From contig CAIOSO010000081.1 in NCBI GenBank assembly GCA_903860985.1, forward strand, positions 1 through 39,033: a stretch of 39,033 bases of DNA, written 5' to 3'. This stretch comes from an uncultured Flavobacteriales bacterium (GTDB lineage Bacteria; Bacteroidota; Bacteroidia; Flavobacteriales_D; Crocinitomicaceae). Shown piece by piece: positions 16,769 through 26,971 of this stretch. Both the position numbers and the translations under genes were made by a program. Under the pieces are notes generated by a model. That model saw only the letters and a program-made list of their open reading frames with translations, had not been told where the DNA came from and did no database searches. Position 1 is the stretch's first letter, and the number at the start of each line of letters is the position of its first letter.

Positions 16769-16786
16769 TTTAGAACATGTACTAAG
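16769..16786. promoter_or_regulatory. Palindromic operator-like site, copy 1
   Basis: TTTAGAACATGTACTAAG is an 18-bp near-palindrome. It is followed by ATTGAAGCAAGGGC, which is nearly the same as the sequence after copy 3 at 20772. It lies 103 bp before the ATG of the T9SS gene at 16890. Confidence 0.6.
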
Positions 16787-16889
16787 ATTGAAGCAAGGGC
16801 TATTTTATCAAATGATTTAAATTTAATTTTAAACTATTAAAATCGATTGTTCTCAAACGAACCATCCAATTCACTTAACTAATCTAACC

Positions 16890-18167
16890 ATGAAACTACT
16901 TCTACTCAGCCTTCTTGTCTGCAATATTGCCTATTCTCAATGGAGCCCGGTGAAAACATTTGATGTATCATCTCCTATTCATTCAATAACAGATTTCGAT
17001 TTTATCACTGAAGAACGAGGATTTCTTATTTCATATAGCAATAATACAAATACCTTTTACCGCACCATTGATGGTGGAATTACCTGGGATTCTACAACAA
17101 CTGTGGAAGGTTATTTTATAAATATTGTAATGGTATCGGATTCCATTATCTACGCTGCTGGTAATTTAATTGTGAATCCCGGTTCATATCAAAGCAAACA
17201 AATATATCGTTCAATGGATGCAGGTCAGACTTGGAGCCAACACGAAATATTCAACACTTTGGGCATTTTGGAGAGTGATTGCATGGTATTCACAAATGAC
17301 AGCACCGGATTTGTCAGTTGTTATGATGGGATGTATTACACAAATAACTACGGAACGAATTGGTCATTGCTAAACACCAGCTCTGGAAAATTCCTTGTCA
17401 ATTTAGGTTCAGAAGTGGCTTCTTTTTACAACAATGATATCTACCTCACAAATGTAAACTCATTAACCGTTCAGACAAACATTCTAGACTGTTACGGGAT
17501 TGGGGACGTTCAACGAGCAAGTTCTTATGGCGATACCCTAATTAGAAACAACTTTTGTAGTGATGGTTGGGGAAACATGTGGTATGCTCTTACCATTTCT
17601 GAACTTGGAGGAGGCACGAATGTACTTCACTTTTTAGATGATGGAATTTCAGATGTTGCCATCAATGCAAGCGGGATATACGCCGCCAGCGGAAGACCAA
17701 TACGAAGCATCGATGGTGGTCAAAGTTTTTTCAAACAGGTTTGTACCTTACCGTCTGATTCATTGCTTTTTTTCACTAAATTAGAATTTATCGATAGCGA
17801 CATCGCATACGCCTTGGCTGTTAACCAAGATTCAGGTATGATCAAGTTGCTCAAAACCACAAACGCAGGTGGCATCACCACGAATTATATCACGCAACCG
17901 CTGCAAAACGTTGGTTTATCAAACGACCTTGATGGATTCTCCCTTGAAGTTTATCCAAATCCAGCGATCAACGAACTTAACATTGAATCAAGCTCCTTAC
18001 TGGACCAATTGGAAATCTGTGATTTATCCGGACGCCAATTAGCCACTTTCACCGATATCCAAAACACACATTTCGCTGTCGATTGTCAGTTCTTGAGTCC
18101 AGGGAATTATTTACTGAAGGTTCTTAGCGAAGGGAAAACGGTGGTGAAACAGTTGCGGGTGGAATAA
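16890..18167 (+). CDS. Secreted YCF48/BNR-like beta-propeller protein with T9SS tail
   Basis: A 425 aa exported protein. It has a signal peptide (KLLLLSLLVCNIAYSQ), then repeated propeller blades of the photosystem-II-assembly YCF48/BNR kind. The blade signatures are FYRTIDGGITWDSTT, IYRSMDAGQTWSQHE, YYTNNYGTNWSLLN and IRSIDGGQSFFKQ. A type A Por-sorting domain fills the last ~75 residues (LEVYPNPAINELNIESSS, SPGNYLLKVLSEGK). It is presumably displayed on or released from the cell surface; a binding or adhesive role is a guess. It carries palindrome copy 1 upstream and is followed after 160 bp by the first of three related membrane-protein genes. Confidence 0.82.
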   Translation: MKLLLLSLLVCNIAYSQWSPVKTFDVSSPIHSITDFDFITEERGFLISYSNNTNTFYRTIDGGITWDSTTTVEGYFINIVMVSDSIIYAAGNLIVNPGSYQSKQIYRSMDAGQTWSQHEIFNTLGILESDCMVFTNDSTGFVSCYDGMYYTNNYGTNWSLLNTSSGKFLVNLGSEVASFYNNDIYLTNVNSLTVQTNILDCYGIGDVQRASSYGDTLIRNNFCSDGWGNMWYALTISELGGGTNVLHFLDDGISDVAINASGIYAASGRPIRSIDGGQSFFKQVCTLPSDSLLFFTKLEFIDSDIAYALAVNQDSGMIKLLKTTNAGGITTNYITQPLQNVGLSNDLDGFSLEVYPNPAINELNIESSSLLDQLEICDLSGRQLATFTDIQNTHFAVDCQFLSPGNYLLKVLSEGKTVVKQLRVE

Positions 18168-18327
18168 AATGTTCAGCAATTTTAACTCCCTAAAGACATC
18201 TGACAATGTTTAGCTTACATCAAAATGAATGTCTTTGGTTAAGATTTTACTTTTCGAAAAATGATTCAGGAGCAACTATCGATGAGATAAGCGAAGTTGG
18301 CTGTTTAGATGGAAATACATTGAGTTC

Positions 18328-18948
18328 ATGAGTTTGGTAAAACTACTTTTTTACATTTCCATTATTTCAAGTGCCCTGCCGGTTCTTGTAAATGTCATTT
18401 ATTTTAAATCTATTTCCTTCAACACTTCTGATTTTAAATTCTGGTTTCAACTATTCTCTTTTGAACGGTTTCTGTCAAATATTGGAATTTTAATATTGAT
18501 GTTTACCCTAAAAAATTCCATTCCGATTTATCACTTTTCTATTTTAATTGAGTTCCTTATCATAACCAAACTATTTGATTTAGGTAAAAAGGTAAGGTTC
18601 AACTATTTATTATGGTTCTGCGCTATTGTAGTGTTTTTAACAGATCTTTTCTTTACATCAGATTTACTCCACTTGAACACGTTTAGCGCGATTCTTACCT
18701 ATAGTGTTATTGTTGGATTAGGATGGAAATACCTTTACAACGAAAACTCGAAAAATGAAAAATACATTTCTCTTGTTTCCATTTTTCTGTATTACTTGGG
18801 TTCCATTTTTTACCTCCTTTTTGAACAACATTCAATTTCTATTGAGAAAGCTTTTGATTCTGGATTTATCGTTTTAGCCACTTTATCCGTACTATTCAAT
18901 TTATCCAATACCTATACAACATGGTCACTCCAGAAGAAATTGCTTTGA
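18328..18948 (+). CDS. Multi-pass membrane protein with P-x2-H-x4-I-E motif, paralogue 1
   Basis: A 206 aa integral membrane protein with about seven hydrophobic segments and very short loops. It has no enzyme signature that I recognise. The motif IPIYHFSILIEF (P66, H69, I74, E75) is shared, at nearly the same residue numbers, with the proteins encoded at 19031 and 19957. Similar small 7TM proteins often accompany single-TM histidine kinases in Bacteroidota, from memory. Here the gene overlaps by 28 bp a short frame that matches the N-terminus of such a kinase. A role as the separate membrane sensor of a two-component system is therefore plausible but not shown. Confidence 0.7.
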   Translation: MSLVKLLFYISIISSALPVLVNVIYFKSISFNTSDFKFWFQLFSFERFLSNIGILILMFTLKNSIPIYHFSILIEFLIITKLFDLGKKVRFNYLLWFCAIVVFLTDLFFTSDLLHLNTFSAILTYSVIVGLGWKYLYNENSKNEKYISLVSIFLYYLGSIFYLLFEQHSISIEKAFDSGFIVLATLSVLFNLSNTYTTWSLQKKLL

Positions 18949-19022
18949 TCATAGCTTTGGGAATCTTAATTTTATTAATGGAGTATGTTAACAATGATTC
19001 AAATTCCGTATTTCTAACTTAA
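18921..19022 (+). pseudogene. Truncated histidine kinase N-terminus (remnant)
   Basis: A 33-codon frame, MVTPEEIALIIALGILILLM and a short tail, overlaps the end of the membrane-protein gene by 28 bp. Its first 20 residues align without gaps to the start of the intact kinase at 22432 (MKNPEELALLINLGMLFSLV). M1, P4, E5, E6, A8, L9, I11, L13, G14, L16 and L19 are identical. Homology stops after the membrane segment, with no H-box or ATPase domain, and a stop follows at 19020. I read it as what is left of a kinase gene that once followed its 7TM partner. It is short, so chance or a genuine small membrane peptide cannot be excluded. Confidence 0.6.
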
Positions 19023-19030
19023 TTTAACCG

Positions 19031-19669
19031 ATGAATATAACGTTTAACACTGTTTATTGGATATGCACCTCAACATGTCTAATTGCACCGATTCTGTATC
19101 TTGTGTTTCGGAAAAAAATATTGATGTCAACCTTTCGTAAAATATTTGTGATTTATCTTTTTTTACACGTTCTACATTTTCTCTTCAACATTTATTTTGA
19201 TCTTGTCATTCACAATTGCTTTCCCTTATCACATGTTAATGTACCGATTGAAACCATGTTTTGCATTCTTTTACTGCAAGAGTCAATTCATAGATACCGC
19301 AAAGTATCGTATATTCTAATCTTTGGTGTTTTTCTTATCGCATTGTTTGAAGCACTTTTTATAAACGACATTTGGACAAATAATTGGCTTACAACGTTGC
19401 TTAGTGAAACGTTATTAATATTGAGTTTCATCTTTGTTCTAATTAAATTTAACCCAAGACTTAAAAGGGAGCATTTAATAATTCTTGTTCCACTATTTTT
19501 GATCAAACTTTGTTTTCTTTACTTTGCGATTTTTGAAAATTATATCCGTAGTAACAAGGACTTTTTCTTAAAGAACTTCATTCTAATTCTTATTTTATCA
19601 ACCATATTTCATATCAGTTTGGGCTTTGCAGTATCGAAATTAAAAGACGCGGAAAAATCATCCAAGTAA
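19031..19669 (+). CDS. Multi-pass membrane protein with P-x2-H-x4-I-E motif, paralogue 2
   Basis: A 212 aa protein with about seven hydrophobic segments. It starts 8 bp after the kinase remnant. The shared motif is FPLSHVNVPIET (P65, H68, I73, E74). Overall identity with paralogues 1 and 3 is low, but length, topology and motif position agree. Its 3' end is homologous at the DNA level to that of paralogue 3: where paralogue 3 has AAG-CAA-ACA-TTG-AAC, this gene has AAG-TAA-GCA-TTG-AAC. It therefore ends seven codons earlier than its relative through a single C/T difference. Function is unknown; a sensory role is inferred from the locus. Confidence 0.7.
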   Translation: MNITFNTVYWICTSTCLIAPILYLVFRKKILMSTFRKIFVIYLFLHVLHFLFNIYFDLVIHNCFPLSHVNVPIETMFCILLLQESIHRYRKVSYILIFGVFLIALFEALFINDIWTNNWLTTLLSETLLILSFIFVLIKFNPRLKREHLIILVPLFLIKLCFLYFAIFENYIRSNKDFFLKNFILILILSTIFHISLGFAVSKLKDAEKSSK

Positions 19670-19863
19670 GCATTGAACCCTGCGCACTGAACATGGGAAT
19701 CAGAATTTTACAGAAACGCTGGATTTTCATGAGTTCCAAATGAAAGTGATTATTGATTTTATCTTTTTTAACATCAAACAATTGAGGAACGCCAAGCGTA
19801 AAATAATGGGTGATTTTCAATCCTTTGAATCTAGTACATTGATATTTTAGAACATGTTCTAAA
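19664..19863 (+). repeat. Duplicated ~200 bp intergenic segment, copy A
   Basis: From the last codons of the gene ending at 19669 to the palindrome, this DNA aligns with 20590-20789. Shared blocks include CATTGAAC, TGAACATG, GTTCCAAA and GAAAGTGATTATTG, in the same order and spacing. I see no open frame conserved between the copies, so the conservation is probably recent duplication or a regulatory/RNA function. Confidence 0.75.
19846..19863. promoter_or_regulatory. Palindromic operator-like site, copy 2 (perfect)
   Basis: TTTAGAACATGTTCTAAA is a perfect 18-bp palindrome, 93 bp before the ATG at 19957. It differs from copies 1 and 3 mainly at one base (T instead of A in the right half). Confidence 0.65.
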
Positions 19864-19956
19864 TATGACACAATGTAGATACCGCATTTTTAAAACATCC
19901 ATTTTCTTCCTAACTTTCAGTTCGGCGAATTGAACATATTTTACCCAAATTGCATC

Positions 19957-20616
19957 ATGACTTGGTTTGACATAATTTACTACTCCACCGTTGCGACAAG
20001 CTTACTGCCCTTCATCGCACTTACCTTGTTCCCCAAAGCGCTCAAAGGATTTTCGAAACAGGTGCGAACAGCATTGGTGGCCTATTTTATCTACAATGTC
20101 TTGCACCATGCAGCGCAGATCATACTGCTTGATCTATTACATTCAAACCCGATTCCCGCAGCACATATTTCGATTTGTATTGAATTTTATATCCTGCTTT
20201 ACTTGTTTCATGCGATATTGCCGATAAAACACATTCAAGTCATTGCCATCGCCGGTCTTCTTCCCTTTTTAGCGGATGCGTTTTGGATTTCATCCCTGTT
20301 TGAATACATCAAGATGAGTAGCGTTATCTACTTTTTCGCAAATGCTTGTTTTGCCTTTCAAATCATCTATAAAATCGGATTAAAGACGAAAGAAAGTAAC
20401 TTTGTTACCGCCTTTTTCCTGTACTTTTTAGCATGCTTCGTGCATGAGGCTTTTGCAAATTTGATGATTGTCAATCCGCTTGTGTTAGACATGGTATTTC
20501 CTCTCTTTGCCCTCATCAACGCAGCTTTTAGTGTTGCTTTCATGTGGGGAATTATCCGTTCAAATCGTTCATCCGCTGATAAATTCACCAAGCAAACATT
20601 GAACTCCGCGTATTGA
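19957..20616 (+). CDS. Multi-pass membrane protein with P-x2-H-x4-I-E motif, paralogue 3
   Basis: A 219 aa protein with about seven hydrophobic segments. I start it at ATG 19957 (MTWFDIIYYST); an in-frame TTG nine codons upstream is less likely. The shared motif is IPAAHISICIEF (P67, H70, I75, E76). The N-terminal half has YFIYNVLHHAAQ, where paralogue 2 has IYLFLHVLHFLF, giving further weak alignment. The basic tail IIRSNRSSADKFTKQ ends in LNSAY, a seven-codon extension that paralogue 2 lost to a stop. The palindrome precedes the gene, and a copy of the same intergenic segment follows it. Possible role: membrane sensor for the kinase at 22432, inferred only. Confidence 0.7.
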   Translation: MTWFDIIYYSTVATSLLPFIALTLFPKALKGFSKQVRTALVAYFIYNVLHHAAQIILLDLLHSNPIPAAHISICIEFYILLYLFHAILPIKHIQVIAIAGLLPFLADAFWISSLFEYIKMSSVIYFFANACFAFQIIYKIGLKTKESNFVTAFFLYFLACFVHEAFANLMIVNPLVLDMVFPLFALINAAFSVAFMWGIIRSNRSSADKFTKQTLNSAY

Positions 20617-20789
20617 ACATGAAAATCAGGATTTGGTGAAATCGATGGATTTTTATGGGTTCCAAACGAAAGTGATTATTGCCGTTAACTTTTTCAATAA
20701 CAAGCAATTGAGGGCCACCAAACGAAAAATATCTGGTTCATTTAAAGCCTGTTTGGCAAGTGAATTCCATCTTTAGAACATGTACTAAA
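20590..20789 (+). repeat. Duplicated ~200 bp intergenic segment, copy B
   Basis: Partner of 19664-19863. The homology begins inside the 3' end of the coding region and runs through the palindrome, so the duplicated unit included the regulatory site of the next gene. Divergence is greatest in the 60 bp before the palindrome. Confidence 0.75.
20772..20789. promoter_or_regulatory. Palindromic operator-like site, copy 3
   Basis: TTTAGAACATGTACTAAA lies 65 bp before the ATG at 20855, the first gene of the T9SS-kinase-regulator run. Like copy 1 it is followed by an ATTGAAG(T/C)AAG stretch and a T-rich segment. Confidence 0.65.
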
Positions 20790-20854
20790 ATTGAAGTAAG
20801 TGTTTTTTTATCAGTTGATTAAAAATTACATTTAACAAAACGAAATCCATTGTT

Positions 20855-22399
20855 ATGAAAAAAATATTTCTAATGTTGCTTTTAAGTAACTGTGCATTTG
20901 CACAAGTTTCTAATTTTGATTCGTATTTCGAAAAGTTTAGTACGCCATTATTAGGTCCAAGTTATAATGCATACGAAGCTCATTGTTTTTCCCTAATTCC
21001 AGAGGAAAACGGGTATGTTGGAACATCTTGTATTTTAACATATGGGCTTGCAGAGAAAACGCATGTCTTTTCTTTAAAAAATACAAATAATGCCATTTAT
21101 TGGGAAAAAATAATAGAAAACAATGTTTCTGGTTACTCGGACATTAACTGTATGAAAAAAACAAAGGATGGTAATTTTGTTGTTGTAAGCAATCAAGCTG
21201 TCCCATTAAATTCTGATGATCCCTCAAATTATAAAATTGTATTATCTAAAATATCTCCTAACGGAAACTTGATTTTTCAACGAAAGTATTTTTCGCAAGA
21301 TACTTTTGGACTATCCAAATGTTTAAGTGTTGAAGAATTGTCAGATTCTTCTTTAGTGCTTTCCGGGACAACCCACTCCGGTAATGGCTTATTGAAACTA
21401 AATTCAATCGGGGATATTTTATTTTTTAAAAAAATTAATGGGGCATACGATTGGCAAACTTATGAATACAAAGATTCTAATTTAGTTTCTTTTGTCCATG
21501 AACTGGCGCCAGGTCCAATTAATCCGCTTGAATTTATACATGTATGTAAAATTATTTTACGAAATAATACGGGGGATGTTTTAATGAAAAAATGGCTATT
21601 GCCCTATGACACGTTACATAAATGTGAATATCGAGCTGCGCGTCAAACCAGAAAAAATGAGTTTGTTGCATTAACAATTGATCAACAATTTTCAGTAAAT
21701 GGAGATGCAATGTTAAGGTATATTGATACAAACTTAAACGTGAAATGGTCCAGAACTTTTCAAAATACTGTTTCTTTTCCAAAAACCAGATTTGTTTTTA
21801 ATTTGAGAGCGCTAACGGTTGATACATTAAATGAATTTATATATGTTGCAGGCACAATAATAGATAAAGGGGCAAATCCAGCACCAAACGTACCTTGGAC
21901 TTTATATTGTGCTTTCTTTGCGAAAGTAGATTACAACGGTAATATTATCTATAAAAAGTACTTCCATTTCGGCTCAAATAATGTTGAGTATCTTGATATT
22001 TTTATTATGAATATGTGTCCAAATGGAGATGTTGCTTTTTCCGGTAAAATCATTTATTTGGATCAATCATCCGGATTATATACCGTTCCATCAATTTGGG
22101 TGTTTAGGTTTACTTCAGACGGTGTAAGTGATTTTGCCGATTACCTAGGCGTCGAAGAAACACAAGTCAATCAAAACGAGTTGGGTGTTTACCCAAATCC
22201 ATCAACAGGTATTTTTCATTTAGAAAGTTTATCTGAAGAACCAATGGAAGTTGAGGTATATGATCAGCAAGGTTCAAGCATTCAGTTGGAAGATCAATTT
22301 ACAGCAACCATTCAACTAGAAAACCAAGCTCCAGGAATATACTTTATTCATGTGAAACAAGGCGATCAGTTTTGGGTGAAGAAAGTGGTGCTGCAATAA
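20855..22399 (+). CDS. Secreted T9SS type A sorting-domain protein
   Basis: A 514 aa exported protein with a signal peptide (MKKIFLMLLLSNCAFAQ). It has a central region of beta-rich repeats without a named domain. Motifs such as DGNFVVVSNQ, NGNLIFQRKYF, NEFIYVAGTI and NGDVAFSGKI suggest propeller-like blades. The C-terminal Por-sorting domain starts with LGVYPNPSTGIFHLESL and ends with APGIYFIHVKQGDQFWVKKVVLQ. It is a clear paralogue of the broken gene at 24034. Only 32 bp separate it from the histidine kinase, so the surface protein and the signalling pair are probably cotranscribed from the palindrome-bearing promoter region. Confidence 0.82.
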   Translation: MKKIFLMLLLSNCAFAQVSNFDSYFEKFSTPLLGPSYNAYEAHCFSLIPEENGYVGTSCILTYGLAEKTHVFSLKNTNNAIYWEKIIENNVSGYSDINCMKKTKDGNFVVVSNQAVPLNSDDPSNYKIVLSKISPNGNLIFQRKYFSQDTFGLSKCLSVEELSDSSLVLSGTTHSGNGLLKLNSIGDILFFKKINGAYDWQTYEYKDSNLVSFVHELAPGPINPLEFIHVCKIILRNNTGDVLMKKWLLPYDTLHKCEYRAARQTRKNEFVALTIDQQFSVNGDAMLRYIDTNLNVKWSRTFQNTVSFPKTRFVFNLRALTVDTLNEFIYVAGTIIDKGANPAPNVPWTLYCAFFAKVDYNGNIIYKKYFHFGSNNVEYLDIFIMNMCPNGDVAFSGKIIYLDQSSGLYTVPSIWVFRFTSDGVSDFADYLGVEETQVNQNELGVYPNPSTGIFHLESLSEEPMEVEVYDQQGSSIQLEDQFTATIQLENQAPGIYFIHVKQGDQFWVKKVVLQ

Positions 22400-22431
22400 G
22401 TTTACCTAACTTTAGAATACACTATAACTAC

Positions 22432-23238
22432 ATGAAAAATCCGGAAGAACTCGCTTTATTGATCAACCTTGGAATGCTCTTTTCTCTTGTGATGGGAATT
22501 GGGATGGTTTTTCTCGCGGATAAAAATCGGCAGATCAAAGCCTTGGGTGAACAGTTGCTGAAGGATGAAATTGAACGACAAGAAAACGATAAACTAGCCT
22601 TGACCGTTTCCACACAAGAAGCCGAACGCAGTAAAATTGCGCGCAAACTCCACGATGAACTTGGCGCCTTATTGTCCATGGCACAAAAAAACCTGCAATT
22701 ACTCGAAGATGAATCTCAGTTGTCTTCTCAGCAAGCGCTTACCCTTTCCAATGCATCGACTTTAATTCAACAAAGCATCGAGGAAATTCGCAGCATGAGC
22801 AACGATCTGATGCCCTTTTACTTACAAAAGTTTGGACTCTCCAAAGGACTAGAGCGCATGGGACAACAAAAAACAAATGTCCTGAGTGATGATTTTCAGT
22901 TCGAGTCCAACCTTCCCCAAAAACTGTGCATCCAAGAGGAAACCATGACGCATTTCTTTTACATTGCCAGTGAACTCATGACCAACTTGATGAAACATAG
23001 TTTGCCAAAAAAGGTCAACATGAAATTGGACTACCATGAACCACAAATGCACTTGACGATACAACACGATGGCATTGCCTTGAGCGGCGAGGACTATGAA
23101 AAATTGCAGACAAATACAAACGGACAAGGATTAGATAATATTCGCTATCGTTGCCGAAAAATCTCCGCGAAACTTTCCTTTCAACGCCATGCACAGCAGG
23201 GAGAGATTCATTTAATCACTGAACTTCAATTCGCATAA
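22432..23238 (+). CDS. Small membrane-anchored histidine kinase (NarX/DesK-type HisKA_3)
   Basis: A 268 aa kinase. I start it at ATG 22432 (MKNPEELALL); an in-frame TTG 20 codons upstream lies inside the previous gene. One transmembrane helix (about residues 9-29) is followed by a coiled coil. The HisKA_3 phosphoacceptor is ERSKIARKLHDELGALLS (H74), and the HATPase domain has the N-box ASELMTNLMKHS and G-box GQGLDNIRYR. There is no periplasmic or cytoplasmic sensing domain, so the input must come from elsewhere, plausibly from one of the multi-pass proteins upstream. Its stop abuts the start of the response regulator with no gap. Confidence 0.88.
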   Translation: MKNPEELALLINLGMLFSLVMGIGMVFLADKNRQIKALGEQLLKDEIERQENDKLALTVSTQEAERSKIARKLHDELGALLSMAQKNLQLLEDESQLSSQQALTLSNASTLIQQSIEEIRSMSNDLMPFYLQKFGLSKGLERMGQQKTNVLSDDFQFESNLPQKLCIQEETMTHFFYIASELMTNLMKHSLPKKVNMKLDYHEPQMHLTIQHDGIALSGEDYEKLQTNTNGQGLDNIRYRCRKISAKLSFQRHAQQGEIHLITELQFA

Positions 23239-23988
23239 ATGACTGAATCCACGCACATACGCCTAGCGCTTGTAGACGACCATGCCATTTTGAGGCAAGG
23301 ACTAACAAGTATGCTTCAAGCTTATTCTCATTTGAATTTGGTGATTGTTGCTTCCAATGGACAAGACTTCCTCGATCAATTGCAGTCAACAGAAGTGGAC
23401 ATTGTGCTTTTGGACATTGAAATGCCCGTTTTAAATGGCATTCAAACCTTGCAACAATTGAGTAATTCGCATCCGGAGGTGAAGGCCATTATGTTATCGA
23501 TGCACAACGACCCTGAAATTGCGATGGAATGTTTGCGTTCTGGAGCAGCTTCCTATTTATTAAAAGAATGCTCCATCGATGAAATGAAATTTGCGATTGA
23601 ACAAGTTCACCAACATGGGGCTTTTTTAAGTGCCTTTTCTGAAAATTCTTTTGAAAACGAAAAATACAAACACCACAAGCGTCAGCAAAAACAAATTTTC
23701 CGTGGATTTTCAGACCGAGATTTAAGGGTCTTACACTATTTATGCGATGGATTAACCAGCAAGGAAATCGGAGATCGCATCAGTACTTCCAAAAAAACGG
23801 TCGACTTGATTCGCACCCGCTTGCTCAAGGCTTATCAGGTCAAAACATCGAATGAACTCATGCGTTTGAGCATCCTCGATGGATTTTACACCCCAAGAAC
23901 CAACGAAGAAATACAGGCAGAAATCGAAGCCTCAGAAATAGAAAAGTTAGAACGACGCATGCAACGCCTCCGGGATCCGAATGGTTAA
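23239..23988 (+). CDS. NarL/FixJ (LuxR-type HTH) response regulator
   Basis: A 249 aa DNA-binding response regulator. The receiver domain (1-120) has acidic pocket D13/D14 (LALVDDHAILRQG), phosphoacceptor D59 (LLDIEMP), S87 and K109 (SYLLKE). The linker leads to a LuxR-type HTH at about 150-215 (FSDRDLRVLHYLCDGLTSKE, STSKKTVDLIRTRLL). A charged helical tail of about 30 residues (AEIEASEIEKLERRMQRL) extends past the usual end. It begins directly after the kinase stop (TAAATG). It is the obvious candidate to bind the palindrome found three times in this locus, although that is untested. Confidence 0.92.
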   Translation: MTESTHIRLALVDDHAILRQGLTSMLQAYSHLNLVIVASNGQDFLDQLQSTEVDIVLLDIEMPVLNGIQTLQQLSNSHPEVKAIMLSMHNDPEIAMECLRSGAASYLLKECSIDEMKFAIEQVHQHGAFLSAFSENSFENEKYKHHKRQQKQIFRGFSDRDLRVLHYLCDGLTSKEIGDRISTSKKTVDLIRTRLLKAYQVKTSNELMRLSILDGFYTPRTNEEIQAEIEASEIEKLERRMQRLRDPNG

Positions 23989-24033
23989 AATGTCTGTCAG
24001 TAAACAATGAATTTGAACCTTTAAATTAAAACC

Positions 24034-25599
24034 ATGAAACAACTAAAACTCATCCTCCTCCTTTGCATATTCTGCCAAGGAATATATGCTCAAAATCCCT
24101 TAGATCTGCGGGGAGTCAGGTATTATTATGAGACACCTACTTTGGGTAATTTTAATGCTTGTCGTTATTTTAGAACTATGAGCATCGTTGAAAAAGGAAA
24201 TGTCTAAATGATTGGAGGGCAGCAATTCGATGGGTATGGAAAAGCTGACTTGGTATGCATCAACAAATGGAATAGTAACTTTTGGTGGGATTATAGAACG
24301 TCAACATTAATTGGTTCTTCAGGTATTAACGACATCATTACTTTACCGAATAATCGCTTTCTATCCGCAGCTATGTTCTATCCCGTCGACACCTTAAAAA
24401 CTGTGTTATTTAACCAACTTGGCGTTTTAAGTGAAAAAAAAGCAACAGTCCTTCGTCATGGTTTCCCAAATAAATTAACCAAATTATCAGCTACAATCAG
24501 CGCTGTAACTTCTCATGACTGGGGGAGTCATCCTTTCGGAATCCAAATGGACACAATACATGCTTCTGTAGACTTAATAGATGAGGAAGGTAATTATTTA
24601 TATTCTAAGGTACTTCCCTTTGCAGAAACCTATAACAATTTACCCGTGTACAATAGGGCTCACGGCCTTGCAAGTTATCCATACTATGATGCCGTTGTTA
24701 CATTTGGTGTGCAACATAGGACGGTTTCAGAAACCTATTTAAACCAAATAAGCTGGAGCCCTACTCTTTGGGTTTGGGGGTCGGATTACATTTTCTTTTC
24801 GCGAGAAATTTATAAAGATTATGCTCCTCACGATGCCTCGCACATGGATGAATCATTCGGACAGATTGATGCATATGACAATGAATATGCCTTTACTTCA
24901 GGATTTCATCGACCAGATGGATCCGGAGGTGGATACCTTACTGGCCTGGATACCAACTTACACGTTAAATTTTTTAAAAAAATTAACGTGATTAATGCTC
25001 CTTATCAAAGTTGGACAAGTTCGGATTTAAAAATTGATACACTTACAAGGCAGATTTTGGTTACGGGTCAATTGACCCAATATGATTCGAACCAAATTTT
25101 TGTATTAAGTAAGGTAAATTTCCTCGCTCGATTTGACTCGAATGGAAATGCGCTTTACTACAAATATTTTTATTACGATCACAATGAAATAGCGTGTAAC
25201 AGTATGAGCATGACCATTTGCGAAAACAGAGACTTATTATTTACCGGAAATCAATGGGATTTTGAATCAAATGATTACTATTTCTTCACCTACCGCACAG
25301 ATCCAGATGGGTACGATCCAGATGGCCAGTATTTGGGCATTAAAGAAGTTACCGTTACTCCAACTGAAATCGGGATTTTCCCCAATCCTTCCGGCGGAAT
25401 TTTTCAAGTTTCGAGCTTAAGTGTAGAACCCATGCAGATTACCATGCTCGACCAACAAGGAAAACAAGTGGCCCTATTTGAGTTCAATGAACTTTCTTCT
25501 AATAATTCCTTTGATCTGAGCGAACAAGCGCCGGGAGTTTATTTTGCGCATATATTGCAAGGTGAGCAGCAATGGGTAAAGAGGTTGGTGCTGAGATAG
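24034..25599 (+). pseudogene. T9SS-exported protein gene broken by an in-frame stop
   Basis: ATG 24034 opens 57 codons with a signal peptide (MKQLKLILLLCIFCQGIYAQ), then TAA at 24205-24207. ATG at 24208 continues in the same frame for 463 codons to a Por-sorting tail (IGIFPNPSGGIFQ, EQAPGVYFAHILQGEQQW). Without the stop the product would be 521 aa, matching its paralogue at 20855 in length, start and tail; the paralogue has ENGYVG where this gene has EKGNV-stop-MIGG. A restart at 24208 is possible but would make a protein with no signal peptide. It is either a recent nonsense mutation or a sequencing error. It follows the response regulator by 45 bp. Confidence 0.8.
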
Positions 25600-26551: not shown

Positions 26552-26971
26552 ATGAAAACAATGAAGAAATTCCTTTTATTCCTCGCGCTCCTATTCATCA
26601 GTATCTCCGGCTTTTCACAGAGTCGCTATATTTCGGAAACGACGAAAAAAATCGTGTACACCCGAGATGGCGGAACCTGTAATTGTTGTGGGAGTTCATC
26701 CAATCTGGAATACGACCACATCACTCCCTTTTCGTGTGGCGGAAGCAGTGAAGCGTCAAACATTCAACTGCTGTGCATGTCCTGTAACCGAAGTAAATCG
26801 AACAGCTGCACCTGCAAAATACACGATAGAACGGTCGGAACTAATTGCTGCGATGGAGGCTCGACAAAACAACCAACAACGACCGCTCGACAATGTACCG
26901 GAACCACTCAAAAAGGTGTCCGATGCAAAAACAAAACAACGAATTCCAGCGGACGCTGCTACCTTCACTAA
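26552..26971 (+). CDS. Sec-exported HNH endonuclease-like protein
   Basis: A 139 aa protein with a clear signal peptide (KKFLLFLALLFISISGFSQ). The HNH/zinc core reads GGTCNCCGSSSNLEYDHITP, then CGGSSEASNIQLLCMSCNRS: the two CxxC-type zinc knuckles, the DH pair and the distal N of the HNH fold are all present. The tail RQCTGTTQKGVRCKNKT ending GRCYLH is a second small cysteine/histidine motif found on secreted or nuclease-associated proteins (DUF5763-like, from memory). An alternative start is ATG 26561. Export of an HNH nuclease suggests a role outside the cytoplasm, such as digestion of environmental DNA or competition. It follows a ParD-like gene by 6 bp. Confidence 0.75.
   Translation: MKTMKKFLLFLALLFISISGFSQSRYISETTKKIVYTRDGGTCNCCGSSSNLEYDHITPFSCGGSSEASNIQLLCMSCNRSKSNSCTCKIHDRTVGTNCCDGGSTKQPTTTARQCTGTTQKGVRCKNKTTNSSGRCYLH

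Follow-up and report, generated by a model that had tools for sequence, protein, structure and literature searches.

We analysed a 39,033-nt stretch of DNA, contig CAIOSO010000081.1 of an uncultured Crocinitomicaceae bacterium (assembly GCA_903860985.1), which as a whole is called the window here. Its positions 16769-25599 hold, on the forward strand, genes for proteins exported by the type IX secretion system (T9SS), for seven-helix transmembrane (7TM) proteins and for a two-component system, together with a recurring operator-like palindrome. The first gene encodes T9SS-exported protein A (16890-18167, 425 aa), which combines a BNR/Ycf48-like part with a Por_Secre_tail domain. It is followed by a fragment of a gene for a small protein of about 104 aa (18194-18331, delimited by tblastn and reading frame; the first ~45 residues are gone), by the gene for the 7TM-family protein TM1 (18328-18948, 206 aa) and by the start of a lost kinase gene (18921-19022, with about 15 residues recognisable at 18921-18965). 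Next come two further 7TM-family proteins, TM2 (19031-19669, 212 aa) and TM3 (19957-20616; its structure prediction started at codon 19948), then T9SS-exported protein B (20855-22399, 514 aa), a HisKA_3 histidine kinase (22432-23238, 268 aa), a response regulator with a LuxR-type (GerE) DNA-binding domain (23239-23988, 249 aa) and the broken gene of T9SS-exported protein C (24034-25599), a relative of protein B (33% over 269 aa). The T9SS, membrane, kinase and LuxR-type genes had been listed in a preliminary description of the locus, and all were present on re-analysis. The third T9SS gene, described there as broken, indeed runs into an in-frame TAA (24205-24207) behind its first 57 codons; an unbroken T9SS gene of 534 aa is positioned after the regulator in locus L052. 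The reported kinase remnant proved genuine and very short, with 15 residues aligned from the ATG at 18921 and none of 1000 shuffles equalling the score.

The same 18-bp palindrome had been noted before three of these genes, and we find TTTAGAACATGTWCTAAR at 16769-16786, its centre 112 bp before the ATG of the protein A gene, at 19846-19863 (a perfect palindrome, in front of TM3) and at 20772-20789, in front of the protein B gene. Scanning the window with up to three mismatches returned six strand-matches at these three places, while 100 dinucleotide shuffles gave a mean of 0.26 and a largest value of 2. Across the whole 2.44-Mb genome, matches without mismatch (on at least one strand) occur at the three window places only, no other place has one mismatch or fewer, and one further place (G000:C8:20029) has two. 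Sites 2 and 3 sit inside a repeated leader, a 221-nt direct repeat at 19648-19868 and 20574-20794 whose copies are 72% identical, and sites 1 and 3 open an 89-nt repeat (78% identical); part of their likeness therefore stems from duplication.

The left-hand unit (T9SS protein A, small-protein fragment, TM1 and kinase start) is collinear with an intact unit in genome G047 (locus L057). Protein A shares 85.6% identity over 425 aa with the product of the T9SS gene adjoining the G047 cassette, and TM1 shares 72% over 210 aa with the membrane protein of that genome. At the DNA level the likeness amounts to 89% over 1232 nt, 84% over 62 nt and 82% over 643 nt, and it stops at window position 18955, just within the lost kinase gene. 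Because the units are collinear and their likeness ends inside the lost kinase gene, the left unit is a decayed cassette from which most of the small protein, the kinase and the regulator have been lost. The small-protein fragment resembles its family at 18215-18322 (61% over 36 aa; tblastn E 2e-7 against the window), the family profile scores it at E 0.011 only, and its stop still overlaps the ATG of TM1. The right-hand unit, composed of TM2, TM3, T9SS protein B, kinase and regulator, is intact but rearranged, with the T9SS gene lying between TM3 and the kinase. This order recurs in L052/L005, from a metagenome-assembled genome (MAG) named Flavobacteriales bacterium with a 99% identical kinase; in L054/L006, from a Crocinitomicaceae MAG with an 85% identical kinase, the T9SS genes are placed after the regulator instead.

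Beyond the window, the genes recur across genera and in several Bacteroidota families in the order small protein, 7TM protein, HisKA_3 kinase and LuxR regulator. Successive genes overlap shortly, and the 7TM gene overlaps the kinase gene in most single-copy loci. The proposed co-occurrence of membrane family and kinase was borne out: membrane gene(s), kinase and regulator are present in all 25 loci fetched for the membrane family (L052-L076), and a kinase-model match falls within the 1.5-kb flank in 23 of 26 7TM loci from other genera. Viewed from the kinase side, 49 of 60 kinase matches in the genus (E 1e-15) have a 7TM or small-protein match directly upstream, and two more have one within 2.2 kb, including the window's own, where the T9SS gene intervenes. 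The remaining nine have no upstream 7TM or small-protein match, those of G010, G012 and G023 being partial matches. Locus L269 is arranged as small protein, 7TM, small protein, 7TM, kinase and regulator, that is, two sensor pairs with one kinase.

The small protein itself had been missed, leaving the preliminary gene list incomplete ahead of the membrane gene. The operator was frequently 400-500 bp away from the 7TM gene on its upstream side, and the interval proved to hold a reading frame of ~104 aa whose stop codon overlaps the beginning of the 7TM gene or comes close to it. Such a frame was picked in 27 of 39 upstream regions, with L073 added by profile; the regions without it lie mainly before 7TM arrays or array members (L055, L070, L112, L116, L159 and L164), and L069, L074 and L155 are further cases. 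The resulting profile finds 42 places in 28 of 86 genomes of the genus, 32 of them with a 7TM match directly downstream and 37 with either that or a kinase match at the right distance. Within a sample of the Bacteroidota phylum it matches 38 of 395 genomes and 21 of 170 genera. All 30 loci returned from this sample adjoin a 7TM-model match and 25 have a kinase-model match; for 28 further loci of the genus the numbers are 27 and 26. Conserved residues comprise R55, Y57, D79 and a C-terminal CPPxC...NPLNS stretch, and a hydrophobic N-terminal segment is present in 3 of 60 proteins. No Pfam or NCBIfam model matched any of eight members above cut-off, and among 173 database relatives the 120 that were listed are without a Pfam domain and bear either no name or the label 'hypothetical protein'. 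We propose that the small protein is probably a coupling or ligand-delivery partner. A tandem form also exists: in L219 a 270-aa reading frame ahead of the 7TM gene contains two small-protein domains.

TM1, TM2 and TM3 align along their length, the first two with 23 and 20% identity to TM3, and all three share the P, H, I and E of the P-x2-H-x4-I-E motif by which the membrane family had first been singled out. Most members measure about 200-230 aa, which seven helices and a short tail take up. The structure model of TM3 (pLDDT 93.6) has seven helices with a predicted N-out/C-in topology, in a predicted arrangement like that of G-protein-coupled receptors (GPCRs) and rhodopsins, for which the fold comparison names no specific fold family. 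A Foldseek search with the model returned one transporter among 50 rows, and the model resembles 7TM receptors more than it does known transporters. Assignment to an established 7TM family on the basis of sequence was considered and rejected, since no Pfam family matched any of 37 members above cut-off and no PDB sequence matched at E 1. PF07695 (7TMR-DISM_7TM) matched one of the 37 weakly (E 0.016) and none of the other 36 at E 0.1. Pfam matches to LiaF, VraT or transporter families were absent above cut-off among the 37, and no LiaF/VraT-type family appeared among their Pfam matches at E 0.1. NCBIfam likewise gave no model above cut-off for either the 7TM or the small protein, and the database relatives of both, among those listed, are unnamed or 'hypothetical'. 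Members were found in 21 of 200 genomes of the taxonomic family with three membrane-protein queries and, with a 37-row profile, in 28 of the 86 genus genomes and in 26 of the 395 genomes (17 of 170 genera) of the phylum sample. One locus, L055, is an array with eight 7TM-family matches.

The window kinase matches HisKA_3 (E 2.6e-9, 37.9 bits against a cut-off of 24); its HATPase_c score of 22.2 bits is slightly below the cut-off of 26.4, and several HisKA_3 kinase models match it below cut-off. It has a hydrophobic N-terminal stretch, and Pfam and NCBIfam scans recognised no sensor domain in it. The regulator matches Response_reg (E 5.7e-26, 91.3 bits) and GerE (E 1.4e-7, 31.5 bits), both above cut-off. 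By their domains, the two proteins constitute a HisKA_3 - LuxR/NarL two-component system, with phosphotransfer presumed. The regulator scores 46.5 bits with the PorX equivalog model, whose cut-off is 300, and is thus not a PorX by this measure; the likeness is limited to the receiver domain (E 2e-12). For a kinase so built, we take the 7TM protein to be the likely detached sensor. Conversely, the 7TM protein might be under the control of the two-component system, as a transporter or an effector of membrane stress. We regard this as unlikely: the operator does precede 7TM genes, which are hence likely targets, and some loci hold many copies, as the eight matches of L055 illustrate, but the 7TM gene stands directly ahead of the kinase gene, with overlap in most single-copy loci, the kinase is devoid of a recognised sensor domain, and the TM3 model is receptor-like, with its single transporter among the Foldseek rows.

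A major question is whether the palindrome belongs to this system, as had been proposed. Across the 86 genus genomes, TTAGWACWWGTWCTAA occurs at 42 exact places in 21 genomes, and the reversed pattern at 6. Placement was counted in the fetched loci: none of the 42 sites lies deeper than 30 bp in a called gene, a gene starts within 450 bp of 40 of them, and the genes behind the sites are nine 7TM genes, 12 T9SS genes and 19 others, with no gene at two. Among the 'other' sites, those of L105 and L118 precede the cassette small-protein gene and that of L111 precedes the regulator gene; at L120, one of the two sites without a gene, a small-protein fragment follows. A site with at most two mismatches lies in the 600 bp upstream of 20 of 35 non-redundant cassettes (0.14 in shuffles), and one with at most one mismatch upstream of 10 of 35 (0.01 in shuffles); with the six loci fetched through the palindrome excluded, 14 of 29 cassettes have an upstream site. 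Exact sites occur in 15 of 28 genomes with the 7TM family and in 6 of 58 without it (Fisher p 2.9e-5). These counts uphold the proposed tie. Moreover, sites within one locus are more alike than sites of different loci (mean 3.2 versus 4.4 differences; 0 of 2000 shuffles). Seven sites are present in L070, where several precede individual genes of the cluster. L061, L111, L168 and L174 have sites in tandem at a spacing of 21-22 bp, which would put two dimers on one helix face.

Several observations weigh against an operator read by the cassette's own regulator. Thirteen of the 28 genus genomes with the 7TM family hold no exact site, six genomes hold exact sites without a 7TM match, and the operator is absent from 23 upstream regions of more distant cassettes in other families. 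The idea of the same operator in those families was accordingly dropped, the other inverted repeats there sharing no clear pattern. The palindrome could instead be bound by a regulator with no relation to the cassette, one that by chance controls both the cassette and surface genes. The six genomes with sites and no detected 7TM gene would suit this explanation, as would the 17 of 42 sites that precede no gene or genes other than T9SS, 7TM, small-protein and regulator genes. We nevertheless hold it to be improbable, given the enrichment of sites before cassettes, the co-occurrence across genomes and the likeness of sites within loci; autoregulatory placement is, in addition, usual for cassette-borne regulators.

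Some sites share more than the palindrome. Three in G062 (L114 9029, L114 10794 and L116 6045) have a longer common flank with the hairpin CGATTTCAATCG, perhaps a short repeat element. Together with the 221-nt repeat around window sites 2 and 3, such flanks would be expected if the palindromes were copies of a short repeat element spread by duplication and without regulatory role. This explanation is very unlikely, as exact sites with different flanks occur in 21 genomes and the sites stay clear of gene interiors beyond 30 bp and, for 40 of 42, close to gene starts. The exact operator with the same flank also precedes a 208-aa gene in L101 (G011:C16, 1911) and L061 (G048:C8, 1010); the L101 product resembles a phage-type N-acetylmuramoyl amidase and is adjoined by an IstB-like ATPase, and a mobile segment may carry the operator at these two places. 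Near-identical 242-aa genes in three genomes (loci L099, L117 and L122) have the operator 168-169 bp ahead of them, and two of the three genomes, G002 and G064, gave no 7TM match. TAnnTTTG is the -7 box of Bacteroidota promoters; allowing one mismatch in 32 oriented sites, it lies 38 bp after the palindrome at seven and is otherwise scattered. A fixed promoter placement beside the palindrome is weak because the three 242-aa-gene sites share that flank, and it was not used.

We next consider the T9SS genes. All three exported proteins qualify as T9SS cargo by their Por_Secre_tail matches (16890-18167, E 1.3e-10, 41.8 bits; 20855-22399, E 1.5e-12, 48 bits; 24208-25599, E 1.4e-10, 41.7 bits; cut-off 27). 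The expectation that palindromes cluster before T9SS genes held within the genus, where 12 of the 42 sites do so (binomial p 6e-13, applying the rate of the window's own genome, 78 T9SS tails per 2.44 Mb, to all genomes), but not genome-wide here, where 2 of 78 T9SS-tail genes have one. A genome-wide T9SS regulon in this genome was therefore rejected, with the operator at three exact places and one with two mismatches against 78 T9SS-tail matches. Nine of the 12 T9SS sites lie on contigs without a 7TM match, which implies action in trans; seven of these nine are in genomes that have the 7TM family elsewhere. In G029 and G031, relatives of the protein A gene are preceded by the palindrome, and no cassette adjoins them; the size and succession of the flanking reading frames suggest that the chromosomal position is the same.

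For 28 non-redundant cassettes, almost all of them from the genus, the flanks covered 8 kb or more; 17 have a T9SS gene nearby, and the 35 such genes compare with about 10 expected. This factor is rough, because the count used our own tail profile (E 1e-3) on few cassettes, some of whose loci were fetched through the palindrome, and the expectation used the PF18962 rate of one genome. For other families, a T9SS gene lay in the fetched 20 kb in 5 of 20 loci (six genes in 400 kb), and a wide association beyond the family was rejected. T9SS genes, which the preliminary description had made part of the locus, are better seen as targets and neighbours; as neighbours they are lineage-specific and lie outside the cassette core. 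That description had also suggested that what the 7TM proteins detect is perhaps the condition of the T9SS surface proteins. The excess of T9SS genes near genus cassettes fits this, and so does PorA, a Porphyromonas T9SS-tail protein reported to affect PorXY-SigP signalling (PMC7712824). With cassettes outside the family mostly free of T9SS neighbours, we give the idea little credence.

We conclude that the window probably carries one decayed and one intact copy of a cassette whose 7TM protein likely serves as the detached sensor of the kinase and whose regulator likely binds TTAGWACWWGTWCTAA before 7TM and some T9SS genes. The small protein would be made just ahead of the 7TM protein, which would change state with a ligand or membrane condition and relay this to the kinase by contacts between membrane helices. 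The kinase would then phosphorylate the regulator, which would dimerise on the palindrome and set the level of its own receptors, a feedback, and also that of cell-surface proteins, in cis and in trans. TM1 keeps an open reading frame despite the loss of the kinase and regulator that belonged to it. Any signal from TM1 would pass through the kinase of the second cassette; such sharing is the simplest reading, and tandem arrays elsewhere fit it. A wider picture, which we advance tentatively and with more doubt than conviction, is a GPCR-like Bacteroidota system: free 7TM receptors, multiplied into arrays as in eukaryotic receptor families, would share one HisKA_3 kinase and LuxR-type regulator, the small protein with its CPPxC...NPLNS tail would bring a signal to the receptor or link the receptor to the kinase, and the operator would be copied with each receptor gene and recruited by T9SS genes in some lineages, so that sensing sets display. 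Outside the locus, at 26552-26971, the window also encodes a 139-aa HNH protein with a signal-peptide-like start, whose best NCBIfam match, IscB, is far below cut-off (45.9 bits against 175).

If true, these proposals would describe an unnamed family of bacterial 7TM receptors that stand free and have a small protein as their dedicated partner, show an input route for a kinase without a recognised sensor domain, supply an operator and a list of targets open to testing, and connect what is sensed in the environment with which proteins are placed on the cell surface. Arrays of up to eight receptor copies (L055) would offer a bacterial model of many receptors with one output. Our literature search, outside which subscription papers and preprints lay, found, among the titles and abstract openings listed, no cassette that combines a free 7TM protein with this small protein and with arrays of receptors. 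Membrane partners encoded apart from the kinase are already known from other two-component systems. The cassette shares with NarL/LuxR-type systems that employ HisKA_3 kinases the Pfam domains of kinase and regulator and their side-by-side genes; it differs in that no sensor domain is recognised in the kinase and separate 7TM and small-protein genes precede it. In LiaFSR/VraTSR and UhpABC a separate membrane protein feeds a HisKA_3 kinase and LuxR-type regulator, a three-component layout that the cassette resembles, whereas the extra small protein, the receptor arrays and the lack of a LiaF, VraT or transporter match above cut-off in the 37 members set it apart. Known T9SS regulation concerns mainly the secretion machine, and PorXY-SigP, which is not LuxR-type, regulates that machinery. 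Like the present system, PorXY-SigP is a two-component system tied to T9SS genes in Bacteroidota (PMC4800418). Here, by contrast, the sites precede exported cargo genes, and the regulator falls outside the PorX equivalog. In 7TMR-DISM, 7TMR-HD and BtsS the 7TM part is the sensor and is fused to an output domain. Such fused bacterial 7TM receptors are established, BtsS (LytS type) being reported as a 7TM receptor kinase that binds pyruvate (PMC10653868). The family described here has the same number of helices, as predicted, and neither the fusion nor a PF07695 domain above cut-off that would mark a 7TMR-DISM protein: its 7TM protein is free.

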